From Candidatus Kapaibacterium sp. (GTDB lineage: Bacteria > Bacteroidota > Ignavibacteria > Kapaibacteriales > UBA2268): 64,000 nt of DNA. Made by a program: the position numbers and the translations under genes. The DNA lies in contig CP058732.1 of assembly GCA_013414795.1 (NCBI GenBank), forward strand, positions 546,501 through 610,500, given 5' to 3'. Below the pieces are notes generated by a model. That model was not told the DNA's origin and ran no database searches. It worked only from the letters and a program-made list of their open reading frames with translations. This document shows, piece by piece, positions 15,542-62,395 of this stretch (position 1 is the stretch's first letter; each line of letters begins with the position of its first letter).

Positions 15542-15559
15542 CAAACAAAGGGTTTAAAT

Positions 15560-18416: not shown

Positions 18417-18434
18417 TGATTCATTGGGGCTAGA

Positions 18435-21516: not shown

Positions 21517-21524
21517 TTTCCTTT

Positions 21525-22037
21525 ATGAAGAATTGGAATTATCATAAAAATATTTTCCCGACGCTTGTTTGGTACTTCTACATTTGCCATCGCGAAGTTT
21601 GGCTTATGAGTCGCCAACTCAATCCATTACAAAGTAATCCTTTCATTGAAATCGGAAGGCTTATGTCAGAGGAAAGTTACCAAAAGGAACGAAAAGAAAT
21701 TCATCTGGAAAATATGATAATTGATGTTCTACGAACAAAGGAGAATAAAGTCATAGTCGGCGAAGTCAAAAAAAGTTCTCGCTTCGAAAAAGCAGCAACA
21801 ATGCAACTCGCCTATTATCTCCACCGACTTAAATTACTTGGCTTGGATGCACAAGGCGAACTCCTTTTCCCAAAAGAAAAGAAAAAATTGACTGTTATAC
21901 TTACTCCCGAACTAGAAGAAGAGCTTACCTCCGCTTTGGAAAAAATAAATTCTATTCTTGAAATGGAAAGACCGCCCGAACCAAAGAAAATCAAATTTTG
22001 TAGCAAGTGTGGTTATCAAGAGTTTTGCTGGTCGTGA
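21525..22037 (+). CDS. cas4: CRISPR adaptation exonuclease Cas4
   Basis: A 170-residue RecB-like nuclease that trims pre-spacers and helps select PAMs. Cys21 in the segment TLVWYFYICHREVWLMSR and Cys159, Cys162 and Cys168 in CSKCGYQEFC are the four iron-sulfur ligands. The GEVKKSS and QLAYYLHRL segments are RecB motifs II and III. A second ATG at 21606 would lose Cys21, so the start at 21525 is right. It follows cas3 by 8 bp with no ribosome site, suggesting coupled translation, and its stop overlaps the cas1 GTG. Confidence 0.95.
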   Translation: MKNWNYHKNIFPTLVWYFYICHREVWLMSRQLNPLQSNPFIEIGRLMSEESYQKERKEIHLENMIIDVLRTKENKVIVGEVKKSSRFEKAATMQLAYYLHRLKLLGLDAQGELLFPKEKKKLTVILTPELEEELTSALEKINSILEMERPPEPKKIKFCSKCGYQEFCWS

Positions 22038-23026: not shown

Positions 23027-23289
23027 TGAATGCAATACTTGTCTACGACATTAACGAGAAAAGAGTTGGCAAAGTATTAAAAATATGTAGGAAATACCTC
23101 ACCTGGGTACAAAATTCAGTTTTCGAGGGCGAAATAACAGAAGCGAAACTTTACAAATTAAAATGCGAATTACTTGAAATCATTGATGAGGAAGAAGATT
23201 CAATAATCATCTACACATTTCATTCAAGTTGGTACACCCAAAGAGAAATCTTGGGAATAAGCAAAGGAAATGAAAATTATATTATTTGA
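23026..23289 (+). CDS. cas2: CRISPR adaptation protein Cas2
   Basis: An 87-residue ferredoxin-fold protein that forms the core of the Cas1-Cas2 integrase. It begins MNAILVYDINEKRVGKVLKICRKYL, with the conserved Asp in the first strand (VYDI), then TWVQNSVFEGEIT. The ATG at 23026 overlaps the cas1 stop by one base; a TTG two codons earlier also exists but is less likely. It is the last cas gene; the array leader begins right after its stop. Confidence 0.95.
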   Translation: MNAILVYDINEKRVGKVLKICRKYLTWVQNSVFEGEITEAKLYKLKCELLEIIDEEEDSIIIYTFHSSWYTQREILGISKGNENYII

Positions 23290-23442
23290 TGAAAGGATTT
23301 CGTCGACGATTAAAAGAGGAAAAAAGATAGGGTTACGACGAAGCAAAAATTTTAGTAAAATTGCAGAAAATGAGAAATATAAAGCAAAAGTAACGAGTTC
23401 TTTGACAATTAAAAGAAAAAGAACAGCAGGACGTCTAAACGG
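23290..23442 (+). promoter_or_regulatory. CRISPR leader
   Basis: A 153-bp purine-rich, AT-rich stretch lies between the cas2 stop and the first repeat. Position and orientation (repeat 3' end GAAAC pointing away from the cas genes) make this the leader, where integration occurs and array transcription should start. A TTGACA-like hexamer is at 23402-23407, but no matching downstream element is clear. A 63-codon frame crosses it into the first repeat and is judged spurious. Confidence 0.8.
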
Positions 23443-38042: not shown

Positions 38043-38107
38043 GATTAGAGCCTGAGATTGCAAAAAAGAGATTGGAAAATGGAAACTGGGGATTATACGA
38101 GTATAAA
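38043..38107 (+). repeat. Broken CRISPR repeat with partial duplication of a spacer tail
   Basis: Only the first 11 nt of a repeat (GATTAGAGCCT, 38043-38053) remain; the other 19 nt are replaced by about 36 nt of unrelated sequence. An 18-nt copy of the preceding spacer's end (GGATTATACGAGTATAAA) then occurs directly before the next full repeat at 38108. The joint looks like slippage or recombination between two copies. The unit cannot give a normal crRNA. Confidence 0.85.
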
Positions 38108-41100
38108 GATTAGAGCCTACCTATAAGGAATTGAAACTACGCATTCAAATTCCAAATCTCAAATTTTTGCCCCGATTAGAGCCTACCTATAAGGAATTGA
38201 AACCCGATAATAGGATTTGTCAATGGATTAAGAACAAAAGATTAGAGCCTACCTATAAGGAATTGAAACACTTTATCTGGCAAATTGTTGCGGAAATTGC
38301 TGTAAGATTAGAGCCTACCTATAAGGAATTGAAACATATTTTACCGCAATGATAACAACGTAACTTAATCGGATTAGAGCCTACCTATAAGGAATTGAAA
38401 CTACATTTGCAACTGTGCTTCGTTGTTTCGATAGAAAGATTAGAGCCTACCTATAAGGAATTGAAACTATCGATTGTGGAACATTTTAGGAGAATAAAAT
38501 GCGATTAGAGCCTACCTATAAGGAATTGAAACCCTCACCAATTGTTCGACTTTTTCGTCAAAAACCTTGATTAGAGCCTACCTATAAGGAATTGAAACTT
38601 GAGATTAAGAGACAAGGCTTACCCGCTCGCAGATAGATTAGAGCCTACCTATAAGGAATTGAAACTGGAAAAATATGAACTTTTCTTCGCCTAAAAATAT
38701 CGATTAGAGCCTACCTATAAGGAATTGAAACGATTTAAGTATTTGTTATGCTTTCCCGCAGAATGAGTGATTAGAGCCTACCTATAAGGAATTGAAACAT
38801 TTCAGCAATTTCCTCCTGCGTCGGAGCGGTTTTTGATTAGAGCCTACCTATAAGGAATTGAAACATTACGAGGATATAATGAATGCAGCGGATGAACTTT
38901 GATTAGAGCCTACCTATAAGGAATTGAAACCTTCCGTACCGTTTTTCAATCTGGATGCAATGAATTGATTAGAGCCTACCTATAAGGAATTGAAACTGGA
39001 AAGACGGCGGGGGGCGGATTGGAACCCAGAGAGAGATTAGAGCCTACCTATAAGGAATTGAAACGATATTCCCCCGTGTTTGGATTTTTTAGTGCCATTA
39101 CGATTAGAGCCTACCTATAAGGAATTGAAACGATTTTCTACATTAGCTGTTTCGCCACCGATTTCGCGATTAGAGCCTACCTATAAGGAATTGAAACTCG
39201 TATTCCAATGTCGATACCTCGAAGGTTTTTGGGATTAGAGCCTACCTATAAGGAATTGAAACTTGAAAAACAGAAGGAAAAACTTCTTGCAAAACTACGA
39301 TTAGAGCCTACCTATAAGGAATTGAAACTATTTCCTTATAAACAAAGGAGTTAGAAATGAAAAAAGATTAGAGCCTACCTATAAGGAATTGAAACGACCC
39401 TATGCAACATTCCTGGCTATATGAATTACTTGATTAGAGCCTACCTATAAGGAATTGAAACCCCGAACTTCTGGATGTTTTTCCATCCAAAGCCGATGGA
39501 TTAGAGCCTACCTATAAGGAATTGAAACAAGTTTGGAGCCACCAAAGAGCCAGAACCTCGAATTGATTAGAGCCTACCTATAAGGAATTGAAACTTTGCT
39601 TCATCTACACTTAATCCTGCTTGCATAAAGATTAGAGCCTACCTATAAGGAATTGAAACCCCGAACTTCTGGATGTTTTTCCATCCAAAGCCGATGGATT
39701 AGAGCCTACCTATAAGGAATTGAAACAAAGAACTGGGTATGCCATTAAAAGAAGCATTCAAGATTAGAGCCTACCTATAAGGAATTGAAACTTGTCACCC
39801 TATGTTCAATTCGATACCACAGCAGTAGATTAGAGCCTACCTATAAGGAATTGAAACTGCTTTTTCGGATGAAAACATTTGCGAATACCATCCGATTAGA
39901 GCCTACCTATAAGGAATTGAAACCAGAAAAAGATTTCCAATCCAGAAACAATTCTTCAGATTAGAGCCTACCTATAAGGAATTGAAACCTCGTATCCACC
40001 ACCAGAGCACCGCTATCGACGATGGATTAGAGCCTACCTATAAGGAATTGAAACAAGGAAATTTTGAAAAATTATACAGAAAAAATTGACAGATTAGAGC
40101 CTACCTATAAGGAATTGAAACATGGTAAACTCGCAGAAACCTTCCACCCATTTAAGGGATTAGAGCCTACCTATAAGGAATTGAAACATTTTATTCCGAA
40201 CAAGTTTTATGTCTTCTCGTCTAAGATTAGAGCCTACCTATAAGGAATTGAAACTCCAGGTCGATATTCTTTGCTAACAGGTTGTGTTTGGATTAGAGCC
40301 TACCTATAAGGAATTGAAACACGATTTGAACTCGAAGAGAAGGGGTTAGGAATTTGATTAGAGCCTACCTATAAGGAATTGAAACGACCCTATGCAACAT
40401 TCCTGGCTATATGAATTACTTGATTAGAGCCTACCTATAAGGAATTGAAACTTGGCAATCTTTTTGGTTCAGATGATGAGAAAAAAGCGATTAGAGCCTA
40501 CCTATAAGGAATTGAAACTCTGGGCAAAGAACTGATAAACACTGCTTGCAAGGGATTAGAGCCTACCTATAAGGAATTGAAACTTCGCAAGACAAAATTC
40601 AATCTAAAAGGTATCGACCGATTAGAGCCTACCTATAAGGAATTGAAACTTTGCAGCTTTAACATTGGATTAAAATAATGAAAGTGATTAGAGCCTACCT
40701 ATAAGGAATTGAAACACCAAAATCCATCAGGTTTGTTCCGGCACAGTGATAAGATTAGAGCCTACCTATAAGGAATTGAAACTCGGGAGAAAAAGCTATA
40801 CTGAGCGTGGTAATGTAATGATTAGAGCCTACCTATAAGGAATTGAAACTTCTATGGATTTTTGGTAATCATAAACCTGAAATTAGATTAGAGCCTACCT
40901 ATAAGGAATTGAAACCTCAGACCACTGGAACAGTTCTGGGGTATGCTCTTGGATTAGAGCCTACCTATAAGGAATTGAAACTTGAATACTGGCAGAAGGT
41001 GTTTGCTATCCTCGGCAAGATTAGAGCCTACCTATAAGGAATTGAAACAGTTTCGAGGTGCAAGAAAGCGACATCGTCGAAACAGATTAGAGCCTACCTA

Positions 41101-41675
41101 TAAGGAATTGAAACCCCGAAAACAAAATCGAAACGCTGATTCACGAGGTGGATTAGAGCCTACCTATAAGGAATTGAAACTTTAGAGCAAATTCGAGGTT
41201 CTGGTTCTTTGGTGGGATTAGAGCCTACCTATAAGGAATTGAAACAGATTTTGAGTGGCTTTCCAAAAGCAATAATATTGAGATTAGAGCCTACCTATAA
41301 GGAATTGAAACTCTTGTATAAAAAAACTAAACAATAAACGCACAAAAGATTAGAGCCTACCTATAAGGAATTGAAACCTCCCTTGATTTTTTAAACCATT
41401 TTAACTTTATTTGATTAGAGCCTACCTATAAGGAATTGAAACTAGAGCCAAATGATTGCATATTTGCAATGGACACAAGATTAGAGCCTACCTATAAGGA
41501 ATTGAAACACGCTATACAAAGGAGGCAAAAATGAGCCCAGAACGATTAGAGCCTACCTATAAGGAATTGAAACCCGTAGTTACTTCCGTTTCACCATAAG
41601 CAAGTTTTGGATTAGAGCCTACCTATAAGGAATTGAAACAAAATAGGTGATTATTCCCCGTTGCGTCCGATTTCC

Positions 41676-42071
41676 GATTAGAGCCTACCTATAAGGAATT
41701 GAAACAAATCAAACGGCGCATATGTTTGCAAGGTAAATCTTGATTAGAGCCTACCTATAAGGAATTGAAACTTGTTGTTTTTCATTTTACGCCTCCTTTT
41801 CAATTTGGATTAGAGCCTACCTATAAGGAATTGAAACGTAAAAAAAAATATTTAGTAAAGGATAAAGAAGAAGGATTAGAGCCTACCTATAAGGAATTGA
41901 AACAAATCAAACGGCGCATATGTTTGCAAGGTAAATCTTGATTAGAGCCTACCTATAAGGAATTGAAACTTGTTGTTTTTCATTTTACGCCTCCTTTTCA
42001 ATTTGGATTAGAGCCTACCTATAAGGAATTGAAACGTAAAAAAAAATATTTAGTAAAGGATAAAGAAGAAG
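41676..42071 (+). repeat. Tandem duplication of three repeat-spacer units
   Basis: The 198-bp segment 41676-41873 is followed directly by an identical copy, 41874-42071. Three spacers are repeated in the same order: those starting AAATCAAACGGCG, TTGTTGTTTTTC and GTAAAAAAAAA. This indicates unequal crossing-over within the array or replication slippage. Confidence 0.9.
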
Positions 42072-45000
42072 GATTAGAGCCTACCTATAAGGAATTGAAA
42101 CACTGGGGAGAAGTTAGAGCGACATGTACACGCAAAGAGATTAGAGCCTACCTATAAGGAATTGAAACTTTTTTTAACCTTCAATTTTTCTTTAATTCTT
42201 TGTGATTAGAGCCTACCTATAAGGAATTGAAACTTCTGGCATTGGCGATTGGGTTTTAGATTGTTTTGGGATTAGAGCCTACCTATAAGGAATTGAAACC
42301 TTTGTTCTCAATCTTTTCTAATGCCCGATACATCGGATTAGAGCCTACCTATAAGGAATTGAAACTAAGACGAAAATGGAATTAGTAGTTGAGAGCAAGC
42401 CAGATTAGAGCCTACCTATAAGGAATTGAAACATTTTAATTGTCCATTTTCAATGGTTAACAGTTTCAGATTAGAGCCTACCTATAAGGAATTGAAACCT
42501 GGAACTAAAACTAAACCCGCAAATCCAGTTGTTGGATTAGAGCCTACCTATAAGGAATTGAAACTTGTTGCTTTGTTGATTCCTGTGTAAAATGGGTGCG
42601 ATTAGAGCCTACCTATAAGGAATTGAAACTTTGGGTAACAATCCAGTATGGAATTTGTTAATAGGATTAGAGCCTACCTATAAGGAATTGAAACCTATCG
42701 GCGTGGCTTTGGTTGTTTTATCGGTCTTAAGATTAGAGCCTACCTATAAGGAATTGAAACCCGTAAAAAGCCGAAAAAGTCGTAATTCGCTTGTAAGATT
42801 AGAGCCTACCTATAAGGAATTGAAACCCGAAGAAGGATAGGTTTAGATTATTCAGAATCACTGATTAGAGCCTACCTATAAGGAATTGAAACAAGGAAAT
42901 AGTAAAAATTGACATTGATTTAGACAAGGATTAGAGCCTACCTATAAGGAATTGAAACTTGAAATAAAATCTACTGGTAGGAATATTGAAGCAGGATTAG
43001 AGCCTACCTATAAGGAATTGAAACAAAGTAAAGAAAGCCGTTGCAACAGCATTGACTACGATTAGAGCCTACCTATAAGGAATTGAAACGGAGTAATTGA
43101 TGGGCGAGCAGAGCGAAGAAAAGTGGATTAGAGCCTACCTATAAGGAATTGAAACATAATAAAACGGTAACCTTTTTCAAATGCTTCATTAGATTAGAGC
43201 CTACCTATAAGGAATTGAAACTTGCTAAATCATTTGTGCTCGTATCTTTGTTTTTCGATTAGAGCCTACCTATAAGGAATTGAAACCCGTCCCCTCTTTA
43301 AATTTCAAAAGATTATTTACAGATTAGAGCCTACCTATAAGGAATTGAAACTTTTGTTGTGTAATCTCATTCCTAATCGTTGCTTTACGATTAGAGCCTA
43401 CCTATAAGGAATTGAAACCCTTCATTAGTTCTGAAATAAACTTTTCTCTAAACGGATTAGAGCCTACCTATAAGGAATTGAAACTCATAAAGGAATGTAT
43501 ACGGGTCAAATGGGGTTACAGGATTAGAGCCTACCTATAAGGAATTGAAACCACCCCTGGTGGAAAGATTTTTGGGAAACTTATCCCGATTAGAGCCTAC
43601 CTATAAGGAATTGAAACCCGGGTCAATGTCTGTTATGCCACCGCGGATTTTAAGATTAGAGCCTACCTATAAGGAATTGAAACCTTCGAAAAATCTTGTA
43701 ACGAGGCGAGTAAATTCAAGATTAGAGCCTACCTATAAGGAATTGAAACAAACGTAAAGCATTGGAAACATCAGATTCGATAGCCGATTAGAGCCTACCT
43801 ATAAGGAATTGAAACGAATCTCAACAGAAGAAGCAAAGAAAATTCCGCTGGGATTAGAGCCTACCTATAAGGAATTGAAACACATAATCTACAAGGTTTT
43901 TGGCAAACCAGAACCCGATTAGAGCCTACCTATAAGGAATTGAAACTGAGAATGATGGTAATGGGGAGAAACTATGAATATCGATTAGAGCCTACCTATA
44001 AGGAATTGAAACTGGAAATCCGTCGCATTTGCTGGGATTATCATCAAGAGATTAGAGCCTACCTATAAGGAATTGAAACTAGCGGTTTCGTCTTTGATAA
44101 GCATTGCATCAATACGATTAGAGCCTACCTATAAGGAATTGAAACACATTGATGTTGAAAATATTTTCTGGATATGAATAGGATTAGAGCCTACCTATAA
44201 GGAATTGAAACCAAGTGTTGTGTTGTTAGCGTTGTCTCTTTTGATTGGATTAGAGCCTACCTATAAGGAATTGAAACATTGAATTGCCAACTACAATCAG
44301 AGGGATATTTTCGATTAGAGCCTACCTATAAGGAATTGAAACAAAACCAGGGCAACAGAAATTACGACCGAGGCAATCGATTAGAGCCTACCTATAAGGA
44401 ATTGAAACCAGTTGTGAAAAGATATAGATTGAAATTTGGAGCCAGATTAGAGCCTACCTATAAGGAATTGAAACCAGCACTCTGTCAAGAATGATTTTTT
44501 TGTTTTCAATGATTAGAGCCTACCTATAAGGAATTGAAACAGATTCTTTGCGACTAATCTAGAAAACAACGAAATTGGATTAGAGCCTACCTATAAGGAA
44601 TTGAAACACGGAAAACAAAATCCTTTGGAATACTCTGATTTTGGATTAGAGCCTACCTATAAGGAATTGAAACTGATGGATACAATCTCGGTCTTATCAA
44701 CGATATTAGGATTAGAGCCTACCTATAAGGAATTGAAACCTTTTTTTTTAAGTTTGATTTTTAAGCTGTTAATTAGATTAGAGCCTACCTATAAGGAATT
44801 GAAACATGGAAAAGTGATAAAAGAGATGGACTATCCAATTTGATTAGAGCCTACCTATAAGGAATTGAAACTTTTAACGCGGAAGAAAATTCTCAATCGT
44901 TCTAAAATGATTAGAGCCTACCTATAAGGAATTGAAACTGTTAAAACAACAAAAGGAGGATTGAAATGGCAATATGATTAGAGCCTACCTATAAGGAATT

Positions 45001-48000
45001 GAAACTTCTGGCTTTTCGACCAGAAAGTAATGAAAGAAATAGGATTAGAGCCTACCTATAAGGAATTGAAACATAAAATATATTGAAGAGCCAAAGTTCA
45101 AATTTAAAGATTAGAGCCTACCTATAAGGAATTGAAACTATCCTCTTTTGTTCGTAGAGTTTTTCGGTTTCAATGATTAGAGCCTACCTATAAGGAATTG
45201 AAACCTCGTATTCACTGATTGAAACATCGTTTTGCACCAAGATTAGAGCCTACCTATAAGGAATTGAAACCAGACAATGATGTGCAGAACCTTAAAGCCG
45301 AGCAAGGATTAGAGCCTACCTATAAGGAATTGAAACCCGATAGAAGAGAAAGATGAGAGGCGTCGAGTAATGAGATTAGAGCCTACCTATAAGGAATTGA
45401 AACTGAAGAGCGTCGAAAGATGATGGAAAAGCAATTAGAGATTAGAGCCTACCTATAAGGAATTGAAACTTGGAGCGAGGTTTATGTTCCAAACAAATGG
45501 AATAGATTAGAGCCTACCTATAAGGAATTGAAACATTTAAATGGAATTAGAATAGAAGGGGCGGAGTTAGGATTAGAGCCTACCTATAAGGAATTGAAAC
45601 TTGTTTTAACTGGGGAGAAGTTAGGTCGACTTGTACGATTAGAGCCTACCTATAAGGAATTGAAACATGGATATTAAGTATGCACCCGATACAATTAAAA
45701 TAGATTAGAGCCTACCTATAAGGAATTGAAACTTTTGTTCAAAGAAAAGATAAATGTTTCAGATGTAAGATTAGAGCCTACCTATAAGGAATTGAAACAT
45801 GGATATTAAGTATGCACCCGATACAATTAAAATAGATTAGAGCCTACCTATAAGGAATTGAAACGTTTTAGACCCGTTTTGTGGGAGTGGTTCGACACTT
45901 GATTAGAGCCTACCTATAAGGAATTGAAACAAGTATTGTATAAACTAATTCAGAAACACTATGAGTGATTAGAGCCTACCTATAAGGAATTGAAACCTGG
46001 GATTGTAACTGGTAATGCCGAAGCAACAAAAGGATTAGAGCCTACCTATAAGGAATTGAAACGAGCAAAAAATGGAAAATCAAGCAATTCTTTTTGAGAT
46101 TAGAGCCTACCTATAAGGAATTGAAACTCAGAGTTTGATTTAAGATTTCTTTTAGATTATTACGATTAGAGCCTACCTATAAGGAATTGAAACATTCTAT
46201 GTCCTGTTCCTCGGCTATTTTAATCTTAAAGATTAGAGCCTACCTATAAGGAATTGAAACAAGACCAAACAACTGCTTCGCAAAATGGAATCTATGGATT
46301 AGAGCCTACCTATAAGGAATTGAAACTTGATTCGGAAGTAGAACAAAACATCGAAGAGAAAAGATTAGAGCCTACCTATAAGGAATTGAAACAGACTTTG
46401 CCAGCTAAATAAATTATTTGTTTCTTAGATTAGAGCCTACCTATAAGGAATTGAAACCAAGAATTTCCCTTTTTTTGTTGCAGAAAAACTTTAGATTAGA
46501 GCCTACCTATAAGGAATTGAAACGTTTTTTGCTATCGATTCAGCAAACCCTTCTAACGGATTAGAGCCTACCTATAAGGAATTGAAACTTCGCTTCTTCT
46601 AATTCTTTTGCCAGCGGAATTTTCGATTAGAGCCTACCTATAAGGAATTGAAACTAGTCTACGACCACGGGGAAATCTCACTGAGCCAGGGATTAGAGCC
46701 TACCTATAAGGAATTGAAACATCGTATCTCTGATGATGATAGTATCTTGCTTTTGAGATTAGAGCCTACCTATAAGGAATTGAAACAAAATTCGCTTGAA
46801 AAAGCCCTTAAAGAGGGAATGAGATTAGAGCCTACCTATAAGGAATTGAAACTCCAGAAGTTCTTGGAACTTTTCAAAATCATTTGAGATTAGAGCCTAC
46901 CTATAAGGAATTGAAACCGGAGCTAAACATTGGCGGCGACCATCGACCGCTGGATTAGAGCCTACCTATAAGGAATTGAAACTACTTACAGCACAGAAAA
47001 ATCTGGCATTCTGTATTTGATTAGAGCCTACCTATAAGGAATTGAAACTTTTTGTCTGCTTTAAAAACTGAATTAACTCACTTAGATTAGAGCCTACCTA
47101 TAAGGAATTGAAACAACTCAAACTCGTGTGAACCATAGCCAAGAAGAGTGGATTAGAGCCTACCTATAAGGAATTGAAACCCTTTTGGTGATTTCACTTC
47201 GAATGCAACAAATCGAGATTAGAGCCTACCTATAAGGAATTGAAACAGAATATCTTTTTCGTATTTTTGCATAAGTGTAATAGATTAGAGCCTACCTATA
47301 AGGAATTGAAACCAAAGTTTGTGATAGATGTTTCCTTGAAGGTTGGGGATTAGAGCCTACCTATAAGGAATTGAAACCATTATACCCAACCCCAACACCG
47401 TAGGAATAATTGGATTAGAGCCTACCTATAAGGAATTGAAACAAGTAACAACAGAATGCAAGTTTTCATTGCCTTGTGATTAGAGCCTACCTATAAGGAA
47501 TTGAAACTAAAAAAAAAATTAAAAATGCAAGAGTTTTTCGAGAGATTAGAGCCTACCTATAAGGAATTGAAACTCTGGTTTCGAACGGTAATGGAAGTAA
47601 TTCGAAGGGATTAGAGCCTACCTATAAGGAATTGAAACATTGATTGAAATCATCATAAGTTACTTCTGTCGCTTCGATTAGAGCCTACCTATAAGGAATT
47701 GAAACTTCAAAGGCATAAGATAAAGATTTTAAAAGGTTCAAGATTAGAGCCTACCTATAAGGAATTGAAACGTTATATACGACGGCAATTCTTCCCGATT
47801 CAGGAAAGATTAGAGCCTACCTATAAGGAATTGAAACATCGATAAGTTTCAAGTTACTCAAAGACTTGATTTTGATTAGAGCCTACCTATAAGGAATTGA
47901 AACACTTCTTTGCGAGGCTTTTCACTCAAAAGGTTCTTGGATTAGAGCCTACCTATAAGGAATTGAAACAAGAAGAGGATTGGCGGGCATTAGTTGAGAT

Positions 48001-50921
48001 AATGAGATTAGAGCCTACCTATAAGGAATTGAAACCAATTGCTATACCTAAAATCAAATCAGTTGCTCTCAGATTAGAGCCTACCTATAAGGAATTGAAA
48101 CCCATAATTTGCCCCTTTCAACAATCAATCCATTCAGATTAGAGCCTACCTATAAGGAATTGAAACTTCGAAATTCATTTTTTTGACTATTGAAATATAA
48201 ACGATTAGAGCCTACCTATAAGGAATTGAAACATCTTCTCTACCATCCTATTCTCATATATTTCCGCATAAGATTAGAGCCTACCTATAAGGAATTGAAA
48301 CCTGGGAGTTTAAGGGTTATGAAACAGAACAGCCATAGATTAGAGCCTACCTATAAGGAATTGAAACTCTTAATTCTCAAACCAAATGTGAATTTCGCTG
48401 GGAGATTAGAGCCTACCTATAAGGAATTGAAACAAACCCAACTCATCGCAAATCACCATCCACCTCGCCAGATTAGAGCCTACCTATAAGGAATTGAAAC
48501 TAAATCATTAATAATCAAGAGGTTAAAAATGAAGAAAGATTAGAGCCTACCTATAAGGAATTGAAACTTTGTCAGAAAGAGCAGGGCGAATTACTTCGAA
48601 CCAGGATTAGAGCCTACCTATAAGGAATTGAAACCCCCGCCAGAAGCATATATTTCGTGACCGTGTGCAATGATTAGAGCCTACCTATAAGGAATTGAAA
48701 CATCAAAATATTTGCAGTTTGATGTATAAGGGTTTCAGATTAGAGCCTACCTATAAGGAATTGAAACATATTTTTCTTTTCTTTTCTTTCTTTCTTTAAT
48801 AAGATTAGAGCCTACCTATAAGGAATTGAAACGAAGTAAAAAGTTACGATTTGCCTCGTATTGCAGAGAAAGATTAGAGCCTACCTATAAGGAATTGAAA
48901 CATTCTTGTTTTTATTTTTGAACGAAACAAAGTAATAAGATTAGAGCCTACCTATAAGGAATTGAAACTTGCATAACTATGAAACTTTTTTAAAATCATT
49001 TAAAGATTAGAGCCTACCTATAAGGAATTGAAACGCGATGGAATACAACAGAATTATAAACGAACTAAATGGATTAGAGCCTACCTATAAGGAATTGAAA
49101 CTTATTTTTGCAATTGAATGAAAATTGAGGTGCAAAAGATTAGAGCCTACCTATAAGGAATTGAAACTCTGTTAAAGCCCGCCGTGTATAATCAAAAAAT
49201 TTGATTAGAGCCTACCTATAAGGAATTGAAACAAAGCAAAAGGCTCTATTTTACTGCTGTTGACGATTTGATTAGAGCCTACCTATAAGGAATTGAAACG
49301 AGTTTACGAGTGAAATGCAGGCGAGATTAGAGGCGGATTAGAGCCTACCTATAAGGAATTGAAACTTCAGGAACCGTAATTTGCGAAAGCGGAGCAAGAA
49401 GATTAGAGCCTACCTATAAGGAATTGAAACAAAAATCTGACGTAACTTCTGCAAAATGAACAAAATTGATTAGAGCCTACCTATAAGGAATTGAAACACA
49501 GAAAAGTTTCGAATTCTTTTCGAAGTTTATCGAGATTAGAGCCTACCTATAAGGAATTGAAACACCGTAAAAAGTTTCAAAAACTTATCGATTTGCTCGG
49601 ATTAGAGCCTACCTATAAGGAATTGAAACTCCAAACTTACGGCGCTAAACATTGGCGGCGCCCATGATTAGAGCCTACCTATAAGGAATTGAAACTGTAA
49701 ACTAAATTTTCGAAGGGGGAAAAATGAGCGAGAGATTAGAGCCTACCTATAAGGAATTGAAACTCCACCATTGCCTTTCTTCTGAATATGGCACTATGGA
49801 TTAGAGCCTACCTATAAGGAATTGAAACTGGTTATGTAGAGGACGAGCAAATTGTAGACCCGACGATTAGAGCCTACCTATAAGGAATTGAAACGAAGTA
49901 AAGAGTTATGATTTGCCACGTATAGCGGAGAGATTAGAGCCTACCTATAAGGAATTGAAACATGAGTTTCAGACGCTTAAAAATAGAGTATATACCGGAT
50001 TAGAGCCTACCTATAAGGAATTGAAACTTCAATCAAAATTGGTTCACCTAAATTAAAACTAAGATTAGAGCCTACCTATAAGGAATTGAAACGTAAAATT
50101 GTCAACAAATTTGGCGTCTAAATCGAGGGATTAGAGCCTACCTATAAGGAATTGAAACAAATTCGCCGTCCTTACGCCCACCGCCACGATGTTTTGATTA
50201 GAGCCTACCTATAAGGAATTGAAACAGTTATCAGCGGGCGGATAGAGTATACACGTATTCTGATTAGAGCCTACCTATAAGGAATTGAAACTTCGCTTAA
50301 TCACCGGGTCGATACCTTTGAGATTGAGATTAGAGCCTACCTATAAGGAATTGAAACTTTGATTGGGGTTAGTTTTGTGAAGACGGGAGAAGGGATTAGA
50401 GCCTACCTATAAGGAATTGAAACCTCATTGGAGAATCGTTTTTAAAAATCGGGCAAGGGATTAGAGCCTACCTATAAGGAATTGAAACCTGGTTTTCCAA
50501 GACAAAAGAGGAGTGGATTTACAAGATTAGAGCCTACCTATAAGGAATTGAAACACTACACTTGCAATAGGTTTTGTTAAGGACGCAGTAAGATTAGAGC
50601 CTACCTATAAGGAATTGAAACAGTTATCAGCGGGCGGATAGAGTATACACGTATTCTGATTAGAGCCTACCTATAAGGAATTGAAACTCCAATTTTCGCC
50701 TCCACCAACTCTAATGTAATCTGTGATTAGAGCCTACCTATAAGGAATTGAAACTTTAATTAGTTATTTTGTATTTAATGGCAAAAGAAGGATTAGAGCC
50801 TACCTATAAGGAATTGAAACACTGCATTACTCAATGGACAAATTGTTGAGAAAGATGATTAGAGCCTACCTATAAGGAATTGAAACTTTATATACACATT
50901 CCGAAACTACTTCACAAATTC

Positions 50922-50951
50922 GATTAGAGCCTACCTATAAGGAATTGAAAT
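50922..50951 (+). repeat. Isolated GAAAT-ending repeat
   Basis: This repeat ends in T although its neighbours end in C. It is the only T-ending repeat I noticed outside the two distal blocks. The spacer before it (50887-50921) is a near copy of one in the second T block (starting at 58581). Confidence 0.85.
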
Positions 50952-53900
50952 CGGGTAAATCGAATGAAATATGGCTCGATTTCGGCGAGGATTAGAGCCT
51001 ACCTATAAGGAATTGAAACATAATCGCAACCCGCAAACCCGCACCAGAAGTAAGGAGGATTAGAGCCTACCTATAAGGAATTGAAACTTTGCTTTGTTTT
51101 GGTCTTTTCTTTTTCCCCCTTTGGATTAGAGCCTACCTATAAGGAATTGAAACCGAAAAAAGAAAGTAGGAGGATAAGCCTATGGCAGGATTAGAGCCTA
51201 CCTATAAGGAATTGAAACATTTTTTTCTTTATAACAAAACCAAAAAAATTTATTTTGATTAGAGCCTACCTATAAGGAATTGAAACATGGTTTTCATCTT
51301 GGTAATGGCTCGCAAAAATGTGATTAGAGCCTACCTATAAGGAATTGAAACTACTGTTTGGGCGGATAGTATTGGACACAAGCGGTTAGATTAGAGCCTA
51401 CCTATAAGGAATTGAAACAAGATTGAGAGCGAAATAATTAGTTTATTACAAAAAGATTAGAGCCTACCTATAAGGAATTGAAACGTTTATGAAAAAATGC
51501 GAGAGAAGGAGATTGAACAAGGATTAGAGCCTACCTATAAGGAATTGAAACCTCTATAATAATCGGAATTATGTGACTATGTCCTTCGATTAGAGCCTAC
51601 CTATAAGGAATTGAAACCGAAAAAAGAAAGTAGGAGGATAAGCCTATGGCAGGATTAGAGCCTACCTATAAGGAATTGAAACAAATATTATCTGGTGTTA
51701 ACCCACCTGCCACAATGCGATTAGAGCCTACCTATAAGGAATTGAAACAGGCTAAACCGAAATCTCTTTCGCAAAGACATTATTTGATTAGAGCCTACCT
51801 ATAAGGAATTGAAACGATGATGATGAACCGTTTTGATGTGGCTAATATTCGGATTAGAGCCTACCTATAAGGAATTGAAACCTCTATAATAATCGGAATT
51901 ATGTGACTATGTCCTTCGATTAGAGCCTACCTATAAGGAATTGAAACCAGCATTTGAGGAAGACGGGAATATATCACATCAAAGATTAGAGCCTACCTAT
52001 AAGGAATTGAAACTGAGTTTAATTCTTGGTATTTTCATACGCTTCGTTACGATTAGAGCCTACCTATAAGGAATTGAAACCAACTTTGGAATCACCGATT
52101 GATTCAGCAAAGCGGGATTAGAGCCTACCTATAAGGAATTGAAACTTGTATAAAGAATGGTTGGCTGGAAAGAAATATTATGATTAGAGCCTACCTATAA
52201 GGAATTGAAACCGAGAAATAGAACGAGAAGGGGAGTTACAAAGATTAGATTAGAGCCTACCTATAAGGAATTGAAACATTGCCGGAGTACGTGGATAATC
52301 GAGCCAAATCCAAGATTAGAGCCTACCTATAAGGAATTGAAACCCACTATAAGCGGTAAAACCATAGGAGCGTGGAGCGTGATTAGAGCCTACCTATAAG
52401 GAATTGAAACCCAGAGTTCCACTGTTTTATATCGCATAAACGCCAGGATTAGAGCCTACCTATAAGGAATTGAAACAAATCAAGAGAACTTAAGGGTTTG
52501 CCGACCGAAAGCGATTAGAGCCTACCTATAAGGAATTGAAACAAATATTATCTGGTGTTAACCCACCTGCCACAATGCGATTAGAGCCTACCTATAAGGA
52601 ATTGAAACAGGCTAAACCGAAATCTCTTTCGCAAAGACATTATTTGATTAGAGCCTACCTATAAGGAATTGAAACGTGCAACAAAAGGCGGAGCCCCCGA
52701 CATTGTTTGCGATTAGAGCCTACCTATAAGGAATTGAAACTTAATATTGAAAACAGAAAGTATATCTATGTTTCAGATTAGAGCCTACCTATAAGGAATT
52801 GAAACGATGATGATGAACCGTTTTGATGTGGCTAATATTCGGATTAGAGCCTACCTATAAGGAATTGAAACAAATATCTTGTATCATCGCCCGCTCTGTT
52901 GTCAACCGGATTAGAGCCTACCTATAAGGAATTGAAACAGGTGATGAATTCGTAACGTTTTTCCAATAGTTCCCAGATTAGAGCCTACCTATAAGGAATT
53001 GAAACAGGTGATGAATTCGTAACGTTTTTCCAATAGTTCCCAGATTAGAGCCTACCTATAAGGAATTGAAACGCAAATCTGATTTGGATGTGAAATTTTT
53101 CAATGAAAGATTAGAGCCTACCTATAAGGAATTGAAACTTTTTGTGATTTTTTCTGCTTTTATAAATATGCCTTGATTAGAGCCTACCTATAAGGAATTG
53201 AAACAAATATCTCCGTTCATTTTTTTACCCTCCTTTTATTTGATTAGAGCCTACCTATAAGGAATTGAAACTACATTTTAAAATAGAATTTACTTTTATA
53301 ACTGTTAGATTAGAGCCTACCTATAAGGAATTGAAACTAAATCGACGACTCTAATCGCTCTTGCTTCTCTTTTGATTAGAGCCTACCTATAAGGAATTGA
53401 AACCTGTCAAACAATTTGAACACACTCGGAATATTTTGGGATTAGAGCCTACCTATAAGGAATTGAAACTTTACCAACGAGTGGAGTAGCAGTAGGACAA
53501 AAGTTGATTAGAGCCTACCTATAAGGAATTGAAACCTATTCCACCATACAAATAAATACCAGGGTCAATTGGATTAGAGCCTACCTATAAGGAATTGAAA
53601 CCTTTCATAAATTCTTAAAAAGTTTTTGCCAATTATTGGATTAGAGCCTACCTATAAGGAATTGAAACACTTCTCAAATTCTAAATCAAATGGCGGGTCA
53701 GTTAATGATTAGAGCCTACCTATAAGGAATTGAAACATTCCGAACTAATCTTTTCTCTAAACGCCATATAATGGATTAGAGCCTACCTATAAGGAATTGA
53801 AACGCAGAAATGTTCTCCCCAGCAATTGCCGTAAAACTCTGATTAGAGCCTACCTATAAGGAATTGAAACTAATTTAAGGTCGCAAAATACCCAATTCCA

Positions 53901-54903
53901 ACGCCGTGATTAGAGCCTACCTATAAGGAATTGAAACTATCTTTTGTAAATTTTTTAATCATCTTATCCTCTCCAGATTAGAGCCTACCTATAAGGAATT
54001 GAAACTTGATAAAAATGAAAGAGCGTTGCTTTTTATCCCATGATTAGAGCCTACCTATAAGGAATTGAAACTTTACCAACGAGTGGAGTAGCAGTAGGAC
54101 AAAAGTTGATTAGAGCCTACCTATAAGGAATTGAAACAAAAATTAAGAGGTGCATAATGGCAACGCTATATTCTGATTAGAGCCTACCTATAAGGAATTG
54201 AAACGAAAAATTCCAATACAGCACTGGCACCCGCTTGCTAGATTAGAGCCTACCTATAAGGAATTGAAACATTGGTATTCTTCATTTGCTTGTGTGCAAG
54301 GTTCGGGATTAGAGCCTACCTATAAGGAATTGAAACTTGATAAAAATGAAAGAGCGTTGCTTTTTATCCCATGATTAGAGCCTACCTATAAGGAATTGAA
54401 ACTTTACCAACGAGTGGAGTAGCAGTAGGACAAAAGTTGATTAGAGCCTACCTATAAGGAATTGAAACAATTAATGAGGCTCGACAATGGAAAATAGATG
54501 GCGTGATTAGAGCCTACCTATAAGGAATTGAAACGAAGGATGGAAAATGCAAATAAAAATTACATAGTTAGATTAGAGCCTACCTATAAGGAATTGAAAC
54601 TTTGCTCCTCTCGACGCTCAAACTCATATTTCTGAATGGATTAGAGCCTACCTATAAGGAATTGAAACAAATCCCATATCTACCGTATCGTTCTGCTGGA
54701 TTAATGATTAGAGCCTACCTATAAGGAATTGAAACATTTGTGAAAATTGCAATGGGAAAGGTTGGGTGTTAGATTAGAGCCTACCTATAAGGAATTGAAA
54801 CAAATCATTTAAACGCTTGTAAAATCGAGGTTTTAGTGATTAGAGCCTACCTATAAGGAATTGAAACCTTTGAAGGTGTTAGTATATTTTTGCAACGTTT
54901 AGA

Positions 54904-56724
54904 GATTAGAGCCTACCTATAAGGAATTGAAATCCCAAAATGTTAGGAAAGTGTTAGGTGCAAAAATTCGATTAGAGCCTACCTATAAGGAATTGAAATC
55001 CACCACACCCGTGCTCAAATCTTTTGTAATAAAGTGATTAGAGCCTACCTATAAGGAATTGAAATTTCACAGTCTGGAAATAAGCCTTCTTTTGTTCTTT
55101 ATGATTAGAGCCTACCTATAAGGAATTGAAATATGATTGCGATTTCCACATTTTAATACTCTTTTGGGATTAGAGCCTACCTATAAGGAATTGAAATCAC
55201 CAAAACTCGCTACACCTTGCAATAGAGGCATAAGATTAGAGCCTACCTATAAGGAATTGAAATACAAGATAAACCTCTAATTCGAACCCCTCTTTGAAGA
55301 TTAGAGCCTACCTATAAGGAATTGAAATTTGGACACCCGAAACATATACCCAACTCGATACAAGGATTAGAGCCTACCTATAAGGAATTGAAATTTATTT
55401 CCTGTAATTTTTGCAGTAAAAATTCCTGTATGGATTGGAGCCTACCTATAAGGAATTGAAATTTTTTCTCAACAATTTGGTGGATTGCAACCAACAGAGA
55501 TTAGAGCCTACCTATAAGGAATTGAAATCCTTTTAGAAATGAATGAACTGAACGCCGTTGCAAGGATTAGAGCCTACCTATAAGGAATTGAAATCCAGTT
55601 AACCTCAATTTGTCTCTTGGACTTTTGGATGCGATTAGAGCCTACCTATAAGGAATTGAAATTTCAATTCGTTTGTTAAGGTTTTTGCAAAGTCGTCGGA
55701 TTAGAGCCTACCTATAAGGAATTGAAATAAGTCAGCGGAGACTCAATGATACCGACCATACCCCGATTAGAGCCTACCTATAAGGAATTGAAATATGATT
55801 GCGATTTCCACATTTTAATACTCTTTTGGGATTAGAGCCTACCTATAAGGAATTGAAATTAATATTCCATCCTCAAAATTTGACTTTTTGCGATACGATT
55901 AGAGCCTACCTATAAGGAATTGAAATCCAGAAAAAGAAAGTTTAGGTGTTGTTTCGTATACAAGATTAGAGCCTACCTATAAGGAATTGAAATGAGGCTT
56001 ATAACCGATTAAAACAGTTGAATACAGAAGATTAGAGCCTACCTATAAGGAATTGAAATCAATTTCATCATCAAATTCACCATAGCCTTTACATAGATTA
56101 GAGCCTACCTATAAGGAATTGAAATTTTTGACCCAGACGAGTATTTGCTTTGATTTAGGTGAGATTAGAGCCTACCTATAAGGAATTGAAATCTTTTGAC
56201 GAGATGATTGACGAACTCATCAGAAAAAGATTAGAGCCTACCTATAAGGAATTGAAATCAAATTTCAACAAGTGCTTTTATAAAGTTGCGTGGAAGATTA
56301 GAGCCTACCTATAAGGAATTGAAATAAATATGTTCCCTTCGATACGGCGAGCAACAATTAAAGATTAGAGCCTACCTATAAGGAATTGAAATAGATTCAA
56401 CAGAAAATTCATCAGTCTGAAAGTCACCGATTAGAGCCTACCTATAAGGAATTGAAATTAATATTCCATCCTCAAAATTTGACTTTTTGCGATACGATTA
56501 GAGCCTACCTATAAGGAATTGAAATCCAGAAAAAGAAAGTTTAGGTGTTGTTTCGTATACAAGATTAGAGCCTACCTATAAGGAATTGAAATGAGGCTTA
56601 TAACCGATTAAAACAGTTGAATACAGAAGATTAGAGCCTACCTATAAGGAATTGAAATCAATTTCATCATCAAATTCACCATAGCCTTTACATAGATTAG
56701 AGCCTACCTATAAGGAATTGAAAT
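54904..56724 (+). repeat. Block of about 28 CRISPR repeats ending in GAAAT
   Basis: Every repeat from 54904 to 56724 ends in T instead of C, while repeats on both sides end in C. One repeat in it (55433-55462) also begins GATTGGAG. If cut as usual, crRNAs from this block would carry the handle AUUGAAAU. The block has an internal four-spacer duplication. Confidence 0.93.
55860..56095 (+). repeat. Four-spacer segment, first copy (second copy 56459-56694)
   Basis: Four spacers, beginning TTAATATTCC, CCAGAAAAAG, GAGGCTTATA and CAATTTCATC, recur in the same order 599 bp further on, at 56459-56694, with no difference seen. Five other units lie between the copies. Confidence 0.88.
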
Positions 56725-57688
56725 AAAGTCAATAAAGGAGTGGAATATGAGAATTGATTTTGGATTAGAGCCTACCTATAAGGAATTGAAACTGATCCTG
56801 GCGATTTGATTGCGGGCCACCAATTGGCGATTAGAGCCTACCTATAAGGAATTGAAACTAATTCTTCTTTTGTGTAAACCTGTGGGATTTTTTCGATTAG
56901 AGCCTACCTATAAGGAATTGAAACTAATTCGTCAAAATGAAACACTGGTAACTGTTTTAGATTAGAGCCTACCTATAAGGAATTGAAACCCCGCAACAAC
57001 AACATAGGAATTAGTGCCTACGCATGATTAGAGCCTACCTATAAGGAATTGAAACTCAACAGCAACAACAAGAGATTAAGAACAGAATACAGATTAGAGC
57101 CTACCTATAAGGAATTGAAACGAAAAAAAGGAATTAAGTTTTGAAGAGTTCCAGAATGATTAGAGCCTACCTATAAGGAATTGAAACTTAGAAAGCGAGG
57201 TGAAGAATGATAGACGAAAAAAGGATTAGAGCCTACCTATAAGGAATTGAAACACTTGATGATGGTGAAATTAAATTTGAGCGTTATCCGATTAGAGCCT
57301 ACCTATAAGGAATTGAAACACGGTAAATGATAATGGATTAAAGGATTTTACGTGATTAGAGCCTACCTATAAGGAATTGAAACAGAAAAGATATAGAAAT
57401 CCAGTGGTCTACTGGACTACGATTAGAGCCTACCTATAAGGAATTGAAACCTTGAATTTGCAGGGCTTCGTTTGTATCGTCTGCTACGATTAGAGCCTAC
57501 CTATAAGGAATTGAAACCCCTCCAATGATTTTTGTTCTGCTTCAAGAAATGCTGGATTAGAGCCTACCTATAAGGAATTGAAACATTCTTCTTCTGGCAA
57601 CACAAGACGGAACATCTCATTGGATTAGAGCCTACCTATAAGGAATTGAAACAGGAAAAATGAAAATAATTATCACCGACTGGACTGA

Positions 57689-59174
57689 GATTAGAGCCTA
57701 CCTATAAGGAATTGAAATCCCCAAGGCACCCGTCCATAGATGATAGCAAGAAAGATTAGAGCCTACCTATAAGGAATTGAAATACAATCCTTGCGAATAG
57801 TGTCTATCAATTTATCGCGATTAGAGCCTACCTATAAGGAATTGAAATACTGGGGAAAGATTAGAAAGGCTTGTGCATGCAAAGAGATTAGAGCCTACCT
57901 ATAAGGAATTGAAATTCTTTTCACCCTCGCAAAACATATATAGTCAAATCCAGATTAGAGCCTACCTATAAGGAATTGAAATTCGCTCTTTGGCTCGGCT
58001 TCCATCTATTAGTCCCACGATTAGAGCCTACCTATAAGGAATTGAAATTTTAGTCGACGTTTCGGTGAATACAACGTTTCATACGATTAGAGCCTACCTA
58101 TAAGGAATTGAAATACTCTTCTAAAACCCTGCAACCATCCTTGTTTTTGTGATTAGAGCCTACCTATAAGGAATTGAAATTCTTTTCACCCTCGCAAAAC
58201 ATATATAGTCAAATCCGATTAGAGCCTACCTATAAGGAATTGAAATGATTTTGAAACTGCTTTCGGATAGCGATTAGCGAAGAGATTAGAGCCTACCTAT
58301 AAGGAATTGAAATATTGGATTTCAGACGCTTTCGATAAAATCGTACAAACGATTAGAGCCTACCTATAAGGAATTGAAATTCTTCGACACGCAGAAAAAG
58401 GTATTGAGAATTTTGCGATTAGAGCCTACCTATAAGGAATTGAAATCTGCTCTTTTCAGTGATATATTTGGTACCAAAACTGGGATTAGAGCCTACCTAT
58501 AAGGAATTGAAATCACAATGCTGAAAAAGTAGGTGGAATTCCTGCTTCGAGATTAGAGCCTACCTATAAGGAATTGAAATCTCATATACACATTCCGAAA
58601 CTACTTCACAAATTCTGATTAGAGCCTACCTATAAGGAATTGAAATCCACAAACGTTATCCAAGGTATTCGCATAGTCTACAGATTAGAGCCTACCTATA
58701 AGGAATTGAAATATATAATGGGCTCCGAAAAGAAAGAACCAAAGTAAAGATTAGAGCCTACCTATAAGGAATTGAAATCCTTCTTGGATAGCCGCACGGA
58801 CAAATCTTTTAATCGATTAGAGCCTACCTATAAGGAATTGAAATGGAAAGAGGGCGTTTGCAATTACTGGTGCTTTAAATAGATTAGAGCCTACCTATAA
58901 GGAATTGAAATGTCGTTTGCATTGTGGTGAAACAAAAAGCCGTCGTGATTAGAGCCTACCTATAAGGAATTGAAATAGGTTAAGACCAAAATCAGTGTAT
59001 TTGCTGGAATAAGATTAGAGCCTACCTATAAGGAATTGAAATAATTCAATTGAATTTGTGCCCGTACCAATTCCCATTGATTAGAGCCTACCTATAAGGA
59101 ATTGAAATCAGTATTTGGCGAAACGCTTTTGTATTTATCCGTTCGATTAGAGCCTACCTATAAGGAATTGAAAT
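57689..59174 (+). repeat. Second block of about 23 CRISPR repeats ending in GAAAT
   Basis: All repeats from 57689 to 59174 end in T. The block is separated from the first T block by about 14 C-ending repeats (56763-57650) and followed by C-ending repeats to the array end. One spacer (starting TCTTTTCACCC) occurs twice within the block, near 57916 and 58181. Confidence 0.93.
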
Positions 59175-59477
59175 CTAAAATCCACTCTCGGAAAGCCAAT
59201 TCCAGATAAGATTAGAGCCTACCTATAAGGAATTGAAACCGGATATCAAAATGCTTTTTGCTGACAATATAGTTCGGATTAGAGCCTACCTATAAGGAAT
59301 TGAAACTTTATGGGGCTTGCACTTTCTGGCTCCTGGAAAATCGATTAGAGCCTACCTATAAGGAATTGAAACTCGTTGTATGAAGAGAGGGGTTAGTTTA
59401 TTTGCGCCCGGATTAGAGCCTACCTATAAGGAATTGAAACCGTTGTTGGTACTTGGGATGGTATTCTCATTCTAAAA

Positions 59478-60366
59478 GATTAGAGCCTACCTATAAGGAA
59501 TTGAAACTTATCTTTTTGGCTCGCACCAGTTCGCTGTTTTAAAGATTAGAGCCTACCTATAAGGAATTGAAACTGGAAAATATCTCATTCCCAAACCAAT
59601 CCACAAAGAGATTAGAGCCTACCTATAAGGAATTGAAACCTTGATATAACGCTCAAAAAAGGTTCATATGTTATCAAGATTAGAGCCTACCTATAAGGAA
59701 TTGAAACAAAGGTGTAAAGGGTATTGGACCAGTTTTAGCAATGGGATTAGAGCCTACCTATAAGGAATTGAAACAATTAACCAGTCGAGCAACCTTAACC
59801 CTTGCAATCGATTAGAGCCTACCTATAAGGAATTGAAACGCATTAAGAGGGGGCAAAAGATTAGGGATTTACAAAGATTAGAGCCTACCTATAAGGAATT
59901 GAAACATTTTAAACGCACCTTTCCCCGTAATATTTTTCCAAGATTAGAGCCTACCTATAAGGAATTGAAACTGCATTCAAAGAATTTGTCTATTTCAATT
60001 CCAATACGATTAGAGCCTACCTATAAGGAATTGAAACACAATCCAAAGAACTCGAACAATTCTTTGAAACAAGATTAGAGCCTACCTATAAGGAATTGAA
60101 ACTACTTAATCCTGCTTGCATAAAAGAGCGAACAAGACGATTAGAGCCTACCTATAAGGAATTGAAACGTATTGTCAAAGTATTCTATCTCATCGCCTTC
60201 GTTAGATTAGAGCCTACCTATAAGGAATTGAAACATAAATCGATTTGTTTGGAGCGAATAAAGTCAGCAAGATTAGAGCCTACCTATAAGGAATTGAAAC
60301 ATAAATCGATTTGTTTGGAGCGAATAAAGTCAGCAAGATTAGAGCCTACCTATAAGGAATTGAAAC
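59478..60366 (+). repeat. Large array duplication, first copy (13 spacers)
   Basis: This 889-bp segment, 13 spacers with their repeats, recurs at 60470-61358, 992 bp further on, with no difference seen. Within each copy the spacer beginning ATAAATCGATTTG itself stands twice in tandem, so a single-unit duplication came before the large one. Two unrelated spacers lie between the copies. Confidence 0.92.
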
Positions 60367-60469
60367 CAAATTCAAAAAATGGACTGTAACCGAAACCCGT
60401 AAAGATTAGAGCCTACCTATAAGGAATTGAAACCAAGGAATTTTCCTTCTGGTCTTTCTTCGAAACGTT

Positions 60470-61358
60470 GATTAGAGCCTACCTATAAGGAATTGAAACT
60501 TATCTTTTTGGCTCGCACCAGTTCGCTGTTTTAAAGATTAGAGCCTACCTATAAGGAATTGAAACTGGAAAATATCTCATTCCCAAACCAATCCACAAAG
60601 AGATTAGAGCCTACCTATAAGGAATTGAAACCTTGATATAACGCTCAAAAAAGGTTCATATGTTATCAAGATTAGAGCCTACCTATAAGGAATTGAAACA
60701 AAGGTGTAAAGGGTATTGGACCAGTTTTAGCAATGGGATTAGAGCCTACCTATAAGGAATTGAAACAATTAACCAGTCGAGCAACCTTAACCCTTGCAAT
60801 CGATTAGAGCCTACCTATAAGGAATTGAAACGCATTAAGAGGGGGCAAAAGATTAGGGATTTACAAAGATTAGAGCCTACCTATAAGGAATTGAAACATT
60901 TTAAACGCACCTTTCCCCGTAATATTTTTCCAAGATTAGAGCCTACCTATAAGGAATTGAAACTGCATTCAAAGAATTTGTCTATTTCAATTCCAATACG
61001 ATTAGAGCCTACCTATAAGGAATTGAAACACAATCCAAAGAACTCGAACAATTCTTTGAAACAAGATTAGAGCCTACCTATAAGGAATTGAAACTACTTA
61101 ATCCTGCTTGCATAAAAGAGCGAACAAGACGATTAGAGCCTACCTATAAGGAATTGAAACGTATTGTCAAAGTATTCTATCTCATCGCCTTCGTTAGATT
61201 AGAGCCTACCTATAAGGAATTGAAACATAAATCGATTTGTTTGGAGCGAATAAAGTCAGCAAGATTAGAGCCTACCTATAAGGAATTGAAACATAAATCG
61301 ATTTGTTTGGAGCGAATAAAGTCAGCAAGATTAGAGCCTACCTATAAGGAATTGAAAC
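60470..61358 (+). repeat. Large array duplication, second copy
   Basis: Identical as far as can be seen to 59478-60366, in the same order and orientation. It lies in the oldest part of the array, so recombination and not acquisition explains it. Confidence 0.92.
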
Positions 61359-61462
61359 ATTCTACAAGCCCACCCTAAAAAAATGAAAATCAAAGATTAG
61401 AGCCTACCTATAAGGAATTGAAACGAGTACACACTCGAAATGAAGTCTCGGATGTTGGCTTG

Positions 61463-61491
61463 GATTGAGCCTACCTATAAGGAATTGAAAC
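61463..61491 (+). repeat. CRISPR repeat with one-base deletion
   Basis: This repeat begins GATTGAGCC, having lost one A from GATTAGAGCC, and is 29 nt long. It is one of very few decayed repeats near the distal end. Confidence 0.85.
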
Positions 61492-62395
61492 AATGCTCTA
61501 TTTGTTGACGAGGCAATCCGTCAATTCTGGATTAGAGCCTACCTATAAGGAATTGAAACCTCGAACAAAAAAGATATAAAGACTATTTAATTAATTGATT
61601 AGAGCCTACCTATAAGGAATTGAAACTTTCAATGGGAGTGTGGTTTGGGACGCAGAACAAGAGATTAGAGCCTACCTATAAGGAATTGAAACAAAGCATT
61701 AGTCGCCAAAGCAAAAATCTCGACTAGAGATTAGAGCCTACCTATAAGGAATTGAAACTATTGAAAATATTTTCTGGGTATGAGTAGCAAATTGAGATTA
61801 GAGCCTACCTATAAGGAATTGAAACTTTTATGAATGGCTGGAAATTTTACAAATATAAACAGGATTAGAGCCTACCTATAAGGAATTGAAACTGAACTTG
61901 CTCAAAGATTTGCTCTTCCAACAGCGGGATTAGAGCCTACCTATAAGGAATTGAAACACAAAATCAAGCCCGCTATTCCTAAATAAATTGCGTGATTAGA
62001 GCCTACCTATAAGGAATTGAAACTCTGATTAATAAAGGCTTTAAACTGGCGTTTCCGACGATTAGAGCCTACCTATAAGGAATTGAAACCATATCTGGTT
62101 TTCAAAGACCAGGAGCAAAGGCAAAGATTAGAGCCTACCTATAAGGAATTGAAACCCACCATAAGCGGTAAAACCATAGGAGCGTGGAGCGATTAGAGCC
62201 TACCTATAAGGAATTGAAACATCGCTTGCATTGTGGCGAAACGAAAAGCCGTCGTTCGATTAGAGCCTACCTATAAGGAATTGAAACGAATAAATATACA
62301 TAGGATTGAAATTGTCTCTGATAAGATTAGAGCCTACCTATAAGGAATTGAAACTAAAATTTCCTTTCCAATGGTCTAAATACTGTTGAGTATAC

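Follow-up and report, generated by a model that had tools for sequence, protein, structure and literature searches.

The 64,000 nucleotides of Candidatus Kapaibacterium sp. DNA analysed here (contig CP058732.1, positions 546,501 to 610,500 of the forward strand; referred to throughout as the window) carry one array of clustered regularly interspaced short palindromic repeats (CRISPR), in which the last base of the 30-nt repeat switches between C and T in heritable blocks. This base, base 30, touches the spacer. It is inherited with its repeat and is not derived from the protospacer adjacent motif (PAM), which in this system is TTA or TTG, and among related arrays inherited changes fall on it in excess. 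We consider it probable that the leader-proximal repeat is copied at a fixed length, with base 30 copied whatever its identity, and that rare changes at this position thereby become heritable.

Blocks of C- and T-ending repeats

The array occupies 23443..62354 (+ strand) and consists of 588 repeats of 30 nt, the newest being at 23443. Two features, the position of the cas genes on the left side of the array and the ATTGAAAC/T ending of the repeat on the + strand, led us to take low coordinates as newest. Repeats were numbered from the leader side, and each spacer bears the number of the repeat that precedes it, the two together forming a unit. The sequence GATTAGAGCCTACCTATAAGGAATTGAAAC is present exactly in 535 of the 588 repeats, and 51 deviate from it solely by a T at base 30. 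Repeat 484 (55433) ends in T and carries A5G as well, and repeat 575 (61462) ends in C and is altered near its 5' end. Counted over the whole array, 536 repeats have C at base 30 and 52 have T.

From the leader side, the runs are C in repeats 1-415, T in 416, C in 417-475, T in 476-503, C in 504-517, T in 518-540 and C in 541-588. The newer T block (476-503, 28 repeats) lies at 54904..56724 and the older T block (518-540, 23 repeats) at 57689..59174, and they are separated by a C block of 14 repeats (504-517) at 56763..57652, all on the + strand. An earlier inspection of the letters alone (the sequence-only reading) had placed both T blocks, with about 14 C-ending repeats between them, and tabulation of all 588 repeats bore out these coordinates exactly. 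It had also described all other repeats as ending in C; both blocks are real, but the isolated GAAAT repeat 416 (50922..50951, +), a private change, had been overlooked. Three T runs were observed, versus a mean of 47.5 in 10,000 shuffles. Since every shuffle gave at least 39 runs, the T blocks are not a product of chance. Every switch in the window is a transition. Spacers starting with C make up 20/52 of those behind T repeats versus 119/535 of those behind C repeats (Fisher p = 0.016).

Inheritance with the unit

None of the 38 duplicated spacer sequences mixes C and T repeats (five of them lie within the T blocks), and base 30 therefore moves with its unit. Together with the order of the blocks, this agrees with the earlier proposal that the repeat's last base is inherited and that several switches are required. 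Segmental duplications of spacers were also seen (545-557 = 560-572, 490-493 = 499-502 and 276-278 = 279-281). Because such segments are not made by one-by-one acquisition, recombination is active in the array.

PAM and spacer boundaries

Protospacers were mapped by comparing 586 of the 587 spacers with C1:1-60000 and four other stretches of the genome; interval 221 was excluded from both spacer comparisons and mapping. Most of the matches come from a resident prophage (about C1:1-50,000, borders approximate; L108-L110). Its region was found by searching positions 43400-62354 of the window against the genus, where 40 of 88 candidates were scored and many matches lay close to one end of the contig that carries the window. 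Protospacers with two or fewer mismatches were obtained for 81 units, 79 of them within C1:1-60000, and reversed spacers used as a control gave no match to C1:1-60000 at up to nine mismatches. Spacers in 76 of the 81 units begin directly after TTA (61) or TTG (15), which identifies the PAM. Four begin one base late (12, 47, 128 and 349; all 35 nt, behind C-ending repeats), and unit 472 is the sole one of the 81 without a TTA/TTG motif. The late-starting spacers, whose repeats kept C, may reflect over-trimming at the PAM side.

The sequence-only reading had pointed to T units with a different base flanking their protospacers as the observation that would speak against inheritance. Instead, T units 518 (four mismatches), 521 and 525 (six mismatches each, at one site) follow TTA, and T unit 487 (seven mismatches) follows TTG, all at the usual boundary; the exception is unit 540, with which the older T block began (described below). 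Related spacer pairs that join a C unit and a T unit share their 5' boundary in five of seven cases (4-483, 46-483, 282-520, 415-531 and 536-586), and the other two are offset (157-540, one base; 83-486, seven bases). Base 30 is not PAM-derived, because the PAM ends in A or G whereas the repeats end in C or T. We expect C versus T at base 30 to have little effect on self/non-self discrimination, since AAC and AAT are both unlike TTA/TTG and since the target strand beside these PAMs would offer no pairing partner for C or for U at base 30.

Base 30 in related arrays

Relatives of Cas1 were collected from genome contigs, with 80 loci of 163 kept, and arrays were seen in 56 of the 80. From 50 loci, 61 arrays comprising 2427 repeats were read; L034, L057, L061, L077, L087, L095 and one of the two L080 arrays were left out. 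Statistics for base 30 were calculated on the 58 arrays with at least eight repeats (2992 repeats, window included), after four of 62 arrays with fewer had been dropped. Changes confined to the final repeat of an array went into a separate class, trailer decay (61 changes, nine at base 30). Note that this rule keeps the C to T step of L053 out of the base-30 switches counted here.

Seven of 12 inherited switches fall on base 30, versus two of 27 private variants (Fisher p = 0.0014). Several private variants share a repeat (three in repeat 575 of the window, four in L067 and two in L049), and p is 0.0026 when changes within one repeat or at one border are counted once. The L022 array runs C-T-C, L053 goes from T to G, and in L147 15 G repeats are newer than six C repeats (C to G); one of the 127 repeats in L146 ends in a private T. 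Arrays that end in T throughout are found in L041, L068 and one array of L074. A border with non-C repeats newer than C repeats was found in two of 245 sampled genomes of the class of L063 (L147 and L146), and in a sample of 395 genomes of the phylum none of the 394 besides this one has a border with T-ending repeats of this kind newer than non-T ones; the opposite border was searched in neither sample, and carriers of arrays were not counted in the second. That base 30 changes heritably more often than other positions in several separate genomes is, outside the window, suggestive rather than strong.

Founder units at the switches

Unit 540 (59145..59209, +) founded the older T block, and its spacer begins late, with one base left between it and the PAM. 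The prophage protospacer (four mismatches) reads ATTA-T-CTAGAATCC, and the skipped base, T, is the same as the last base of the repeat. Spacer 157, which belongs to a C unit and comes from this site as well, has that T as its first base. The arrangement at 540 looks like the trace of a repeat copy that ended one base early, or of a repeat whose C was lost in the leader-proximal position. A late start (4/81) would meet a first base T (198/535 spacers behind C repeats) by chance in about 2% of cases.

At unit 517 (57623..57688, +), where T gives way to C, the prophage protospacer (one mismatch) lies exactly after TTG. Because spacer 517 starts exactly after this TTG, the C of repeat 517 was not borrowed from the protospacer, and the return to C was a substitution or an exchange. 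Unit 503 (56695..56762, +) founded the newer T block; its spacer is 38 nt and gives no hint of having been shortened. Unit 475 (54838..54903, +) marks the newest switch, from T back to C.

Phage records searched with 54838-59310 gave no match, nor did viral contigs searched with one degenerate or exact pattern each for the 157/540 site, 416, 475 and 517. One viral contig matched spacer 503, aligning at 27/38 bases only and beside a start codon, and was taken as a chance match. Relatives were searched with 54838-59210 (mostly seven candidates scored per genome), with 503-504 and with 475-476, and gave weak matches. Those for 475-476 include E values of 7.2e-4 and 8.1e-4; in the loci returned, spacers 475 and 503 aligned only partially and with gaps, next to no TTA/TTG flank. 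Among the other arrays, the founders of L053 were searched for in viral contigs and gave no protospacer.

Probable fixed-length copying and its alternatives

According to the explanation that we favor, each new unit at the leader end would receive a copy, always 30 nt long, of the leader-proximal repeat, and the array would grow in this way. Base 30 would lie beyond what must be read, and for this reason a change there would pass to every later repeat until the next change; leader-proximal changes elsewhere in the repeat would seldom be transmitted. Changes at base 30 would recur and be tolerated, and errors at the repeat-spacer junction would be the source of some. The oldest, at 540, would have arisen when the repeat was copied one base short and the first base of the incoming spacer, T, replaced C, and the next, at 517, would have come about by the other route, substitution or exchange. 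Measurement of length from anchors inside the repeat is known from the type I-B system of Haloarcula and from other systems. In the present array, we infer the length-measuring step, the junction error and the tolerance of the change. The narrower proposal that the integrase occasionally copies one base short, with a base of the invader becoming the last base of the repeat and then being heritable in both the repeat and the handle of the CRISPR RNA (crRNA), strikes us as doubtful.

A number of observations weigh against this explanation. The signature of a short copy is present in only one of the four window switches and is clearly missing at 517; the case of 540 is a single coincidence (about 2%) with a four-mismatch protospacer, in a set of two founders examined. 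A late start seldom rewrites base 30, since 12, 47, 128 and 349 all kept C. Protospacers of 503 and 475 were found in neither phage records, viral contigs nor relatives. T units 524 and 538 matched at nine mismatches only, with flanks CTT and GTA, and were not used to define the PAM. The window contributes four of the seven base-30 switches, and without it the comparison is 3/8 versus 1/22 (p = 0.048). Inherited switches off base 30 also occur, at positions 17 and 18 in L036, 10 in L058 and 9 and 18 in L076, all of them near the old end of the array.

Four independent point mutations (two C to T and two T to C) at a harmless base 30 would give the same blocks with no special junction error. 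We hold this to be a genuine possibility, though we would not bet on it. All window switches are transitions, private changes are spread over the repeat while inherited ones cluster at base 30, the boundary at 517 is exact, and the arrays of L041, L068 and L074 show that wholly T-ending arrays exist; on the other hand, the T of 540 coincides with the first base of its protospacer, and the changes in L053 and L147 are to G. Exchange between lineages would dispense with back mutation altogether, one founder lineage having gone from C to T and later recombination of blocks having produced C-T-C-T-C. The segmental duplications show that recombination is active, and switch 517 has no sign of a junction slip. 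The sequence-only reading had suggested exchange with a second array of GAAAT repeats. At three or fewer mismatches, the one-contig genome (2,660,650 bases) has 588 forward occurrences of the repeat core, equal to the number in the array, and one reverse occurrence; no such array was found elsewhere in this genome, and at two or fewer mismatches the core was found in none of 39 relatives, so that the donor would be the array of another lineage. No duplicated spacer spans a C/T border (0/38 groups mixed), a comparison at the threshold used gave no similar spacer in the array for 504-517, so that this C block does not look like a copy of another part of the array, and exchange alone leaves unexplained why the lineages differ solely at base 30. 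We rate exchange as rather unlikely. Note that exchange and point mutation both overlap with fixed-length copying, and the likelihoods given to the three do not add up to certainty.

The two remaining alternatives are far less probable. If the last base were drawn each time from the PAM or protospacer, in the manner of the E. coli type I-E system, the blocks would reflect phages with a different flank, and the T of founder 540 does equal the protospacer base at that place. As a general rule this was ruled out by the TTA/TTG flanks, which end in neither C nor T and which precede T units 518, 521, 525 and 487 as well; five of the seven related C/T pairs share a boundary, and the T blocks run for 28 and 23 units. 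We give it next to no credence. An error of assembly or base calling is hardly more credible: the array is long and repetitive, and the isolated T of repeat 416 might be such an error, but two clean blocks with their own spacers lie in one contig, and blocks at the same base recur in other assemblies (L022, L053 and L147).

Comparison with known systems

In the E. coli type I-E system, the last base of the repeat is supplied by the PAM and does not pass on to later repeats (Swarts et al. 2012, PMC3338789). The variable base is in both cases the repeat base that touches the spacer and is affected by integration, whereas here it is not the PAM's (A/G in 76/81) and is propagated, in runs of 28 and 23. 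The contrast suggests that type I systems complete the repeat in two different ways. Repeat-mediated rearrangement of arrays, as reviewed in PMC8047081, resembles the segmental duplications found here, but does not by itself account for switches that fall on base 30.

Heritable last-base switching is a checkable pattern that records small copying errors, and not a new kind of system. Long arrays with switch points record the evolution of the repeat, which is hard to see in short ones. The switch points help to distinguish what the integrase has to read in the repeat from a base that is merely copied, and they allow the fixed-length copying model to be tested from sequence alone.

The cas operon and the extent of the array

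The operon upstream of the array (14789..23289, +) comprises cas6, cas8b (TM1802/Csh1), cas7 (Csh2), cas5b, cas3, cas4, cas1b and cas2. Genes were called from matches above curated cut-offs to Pfam (cas2 not included) and NCBIfam, the latter including TIGR02591, TIGR02590, TIGR02592, TIGR01587, TIGR01877, TIGR00372, TIGR03641 and TIGR01573. With Cas8b, Cas7/Csh2, Cas5b, Cas3, Cas6, Cas4, Cas1b and Cas2 encoded together, the system is, as judged from its genes, of type I-B. It shares with the Cas8b/TM1802 branch the complete gene set, 30-nt repeats of the TACCTATRAGGRATTGAAAC kind common to relatives of its Cas1, and an array adjoining cas2, and it differs in having 588 repeats and a last base that switches in heritable blocks. 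The region between cas2 and the first repeat (23290..23442, +) is presumed to be the leader from its position.

The array has 587 intervals, a number equal to the 587 spacers of Haliangium ochraceum, the longest array named in the CRISPRCasdb paper (PMC7145573). Interval 221 (38008-38107) is a damaged unit of 100 nt with an 11-nt remnant of the repeat and a doubled 19-nt end. Because it contains this remnant, the stored pieces may truly number 588.

The resident prophage and its mini-array

The prophage, with the mini-array described here, may be a stronger lead than base-30 switching. It encodes a tape measure protein, major head protein, terminase, portal, primase and integrase, and is perfectly matched by 59 distinct spacers, 56 of the sites having TTA/TTG directly upstream, an extreme case of self-targeting. 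Of the newest 65 spacers, 29 match it exactly. It also carries a reverse copy of the repeat core, with one mismatch in the core.

A CRISPR-like mini-array lies on the minus strand at C1:31,921-32,013 (L109 11,921-12,013). It reads TATTTAAGCCTACCTATAAGGAATGGAAAT, 33 nt and GATTATAGCATACCTATGAGGACGCGGCTC, followed by a terminator-like hairpin, and its two repeat-like units match the host repeat at 25/30 and 21/30 positions. With the spacer of the mini-array taken as guide, neither the window nor C1:1-60000 showed a site combining TTA/TTG, a seed match and 15/33 matches. Candidate homologues in viral contigs came from three contigs, all of them ordinary stretches of array. When a 201-nt stretch around the mini-array, with the hairpin, was compared with 200 shuffles, the native sequence folded better (z -5.0).

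Prophages are known to encode RNA anti-CRISPRs (Racr) in the form of solitary repeats (PMC10651486). The mini-array mimics the host CRISPR repeat from within a prophage, but it has two repeat-like units in place of the solitary one. We regard it as a candidate RNA anti-CRISPR or crRNA-like RNA which, if active, could explain the survival of the prophage.

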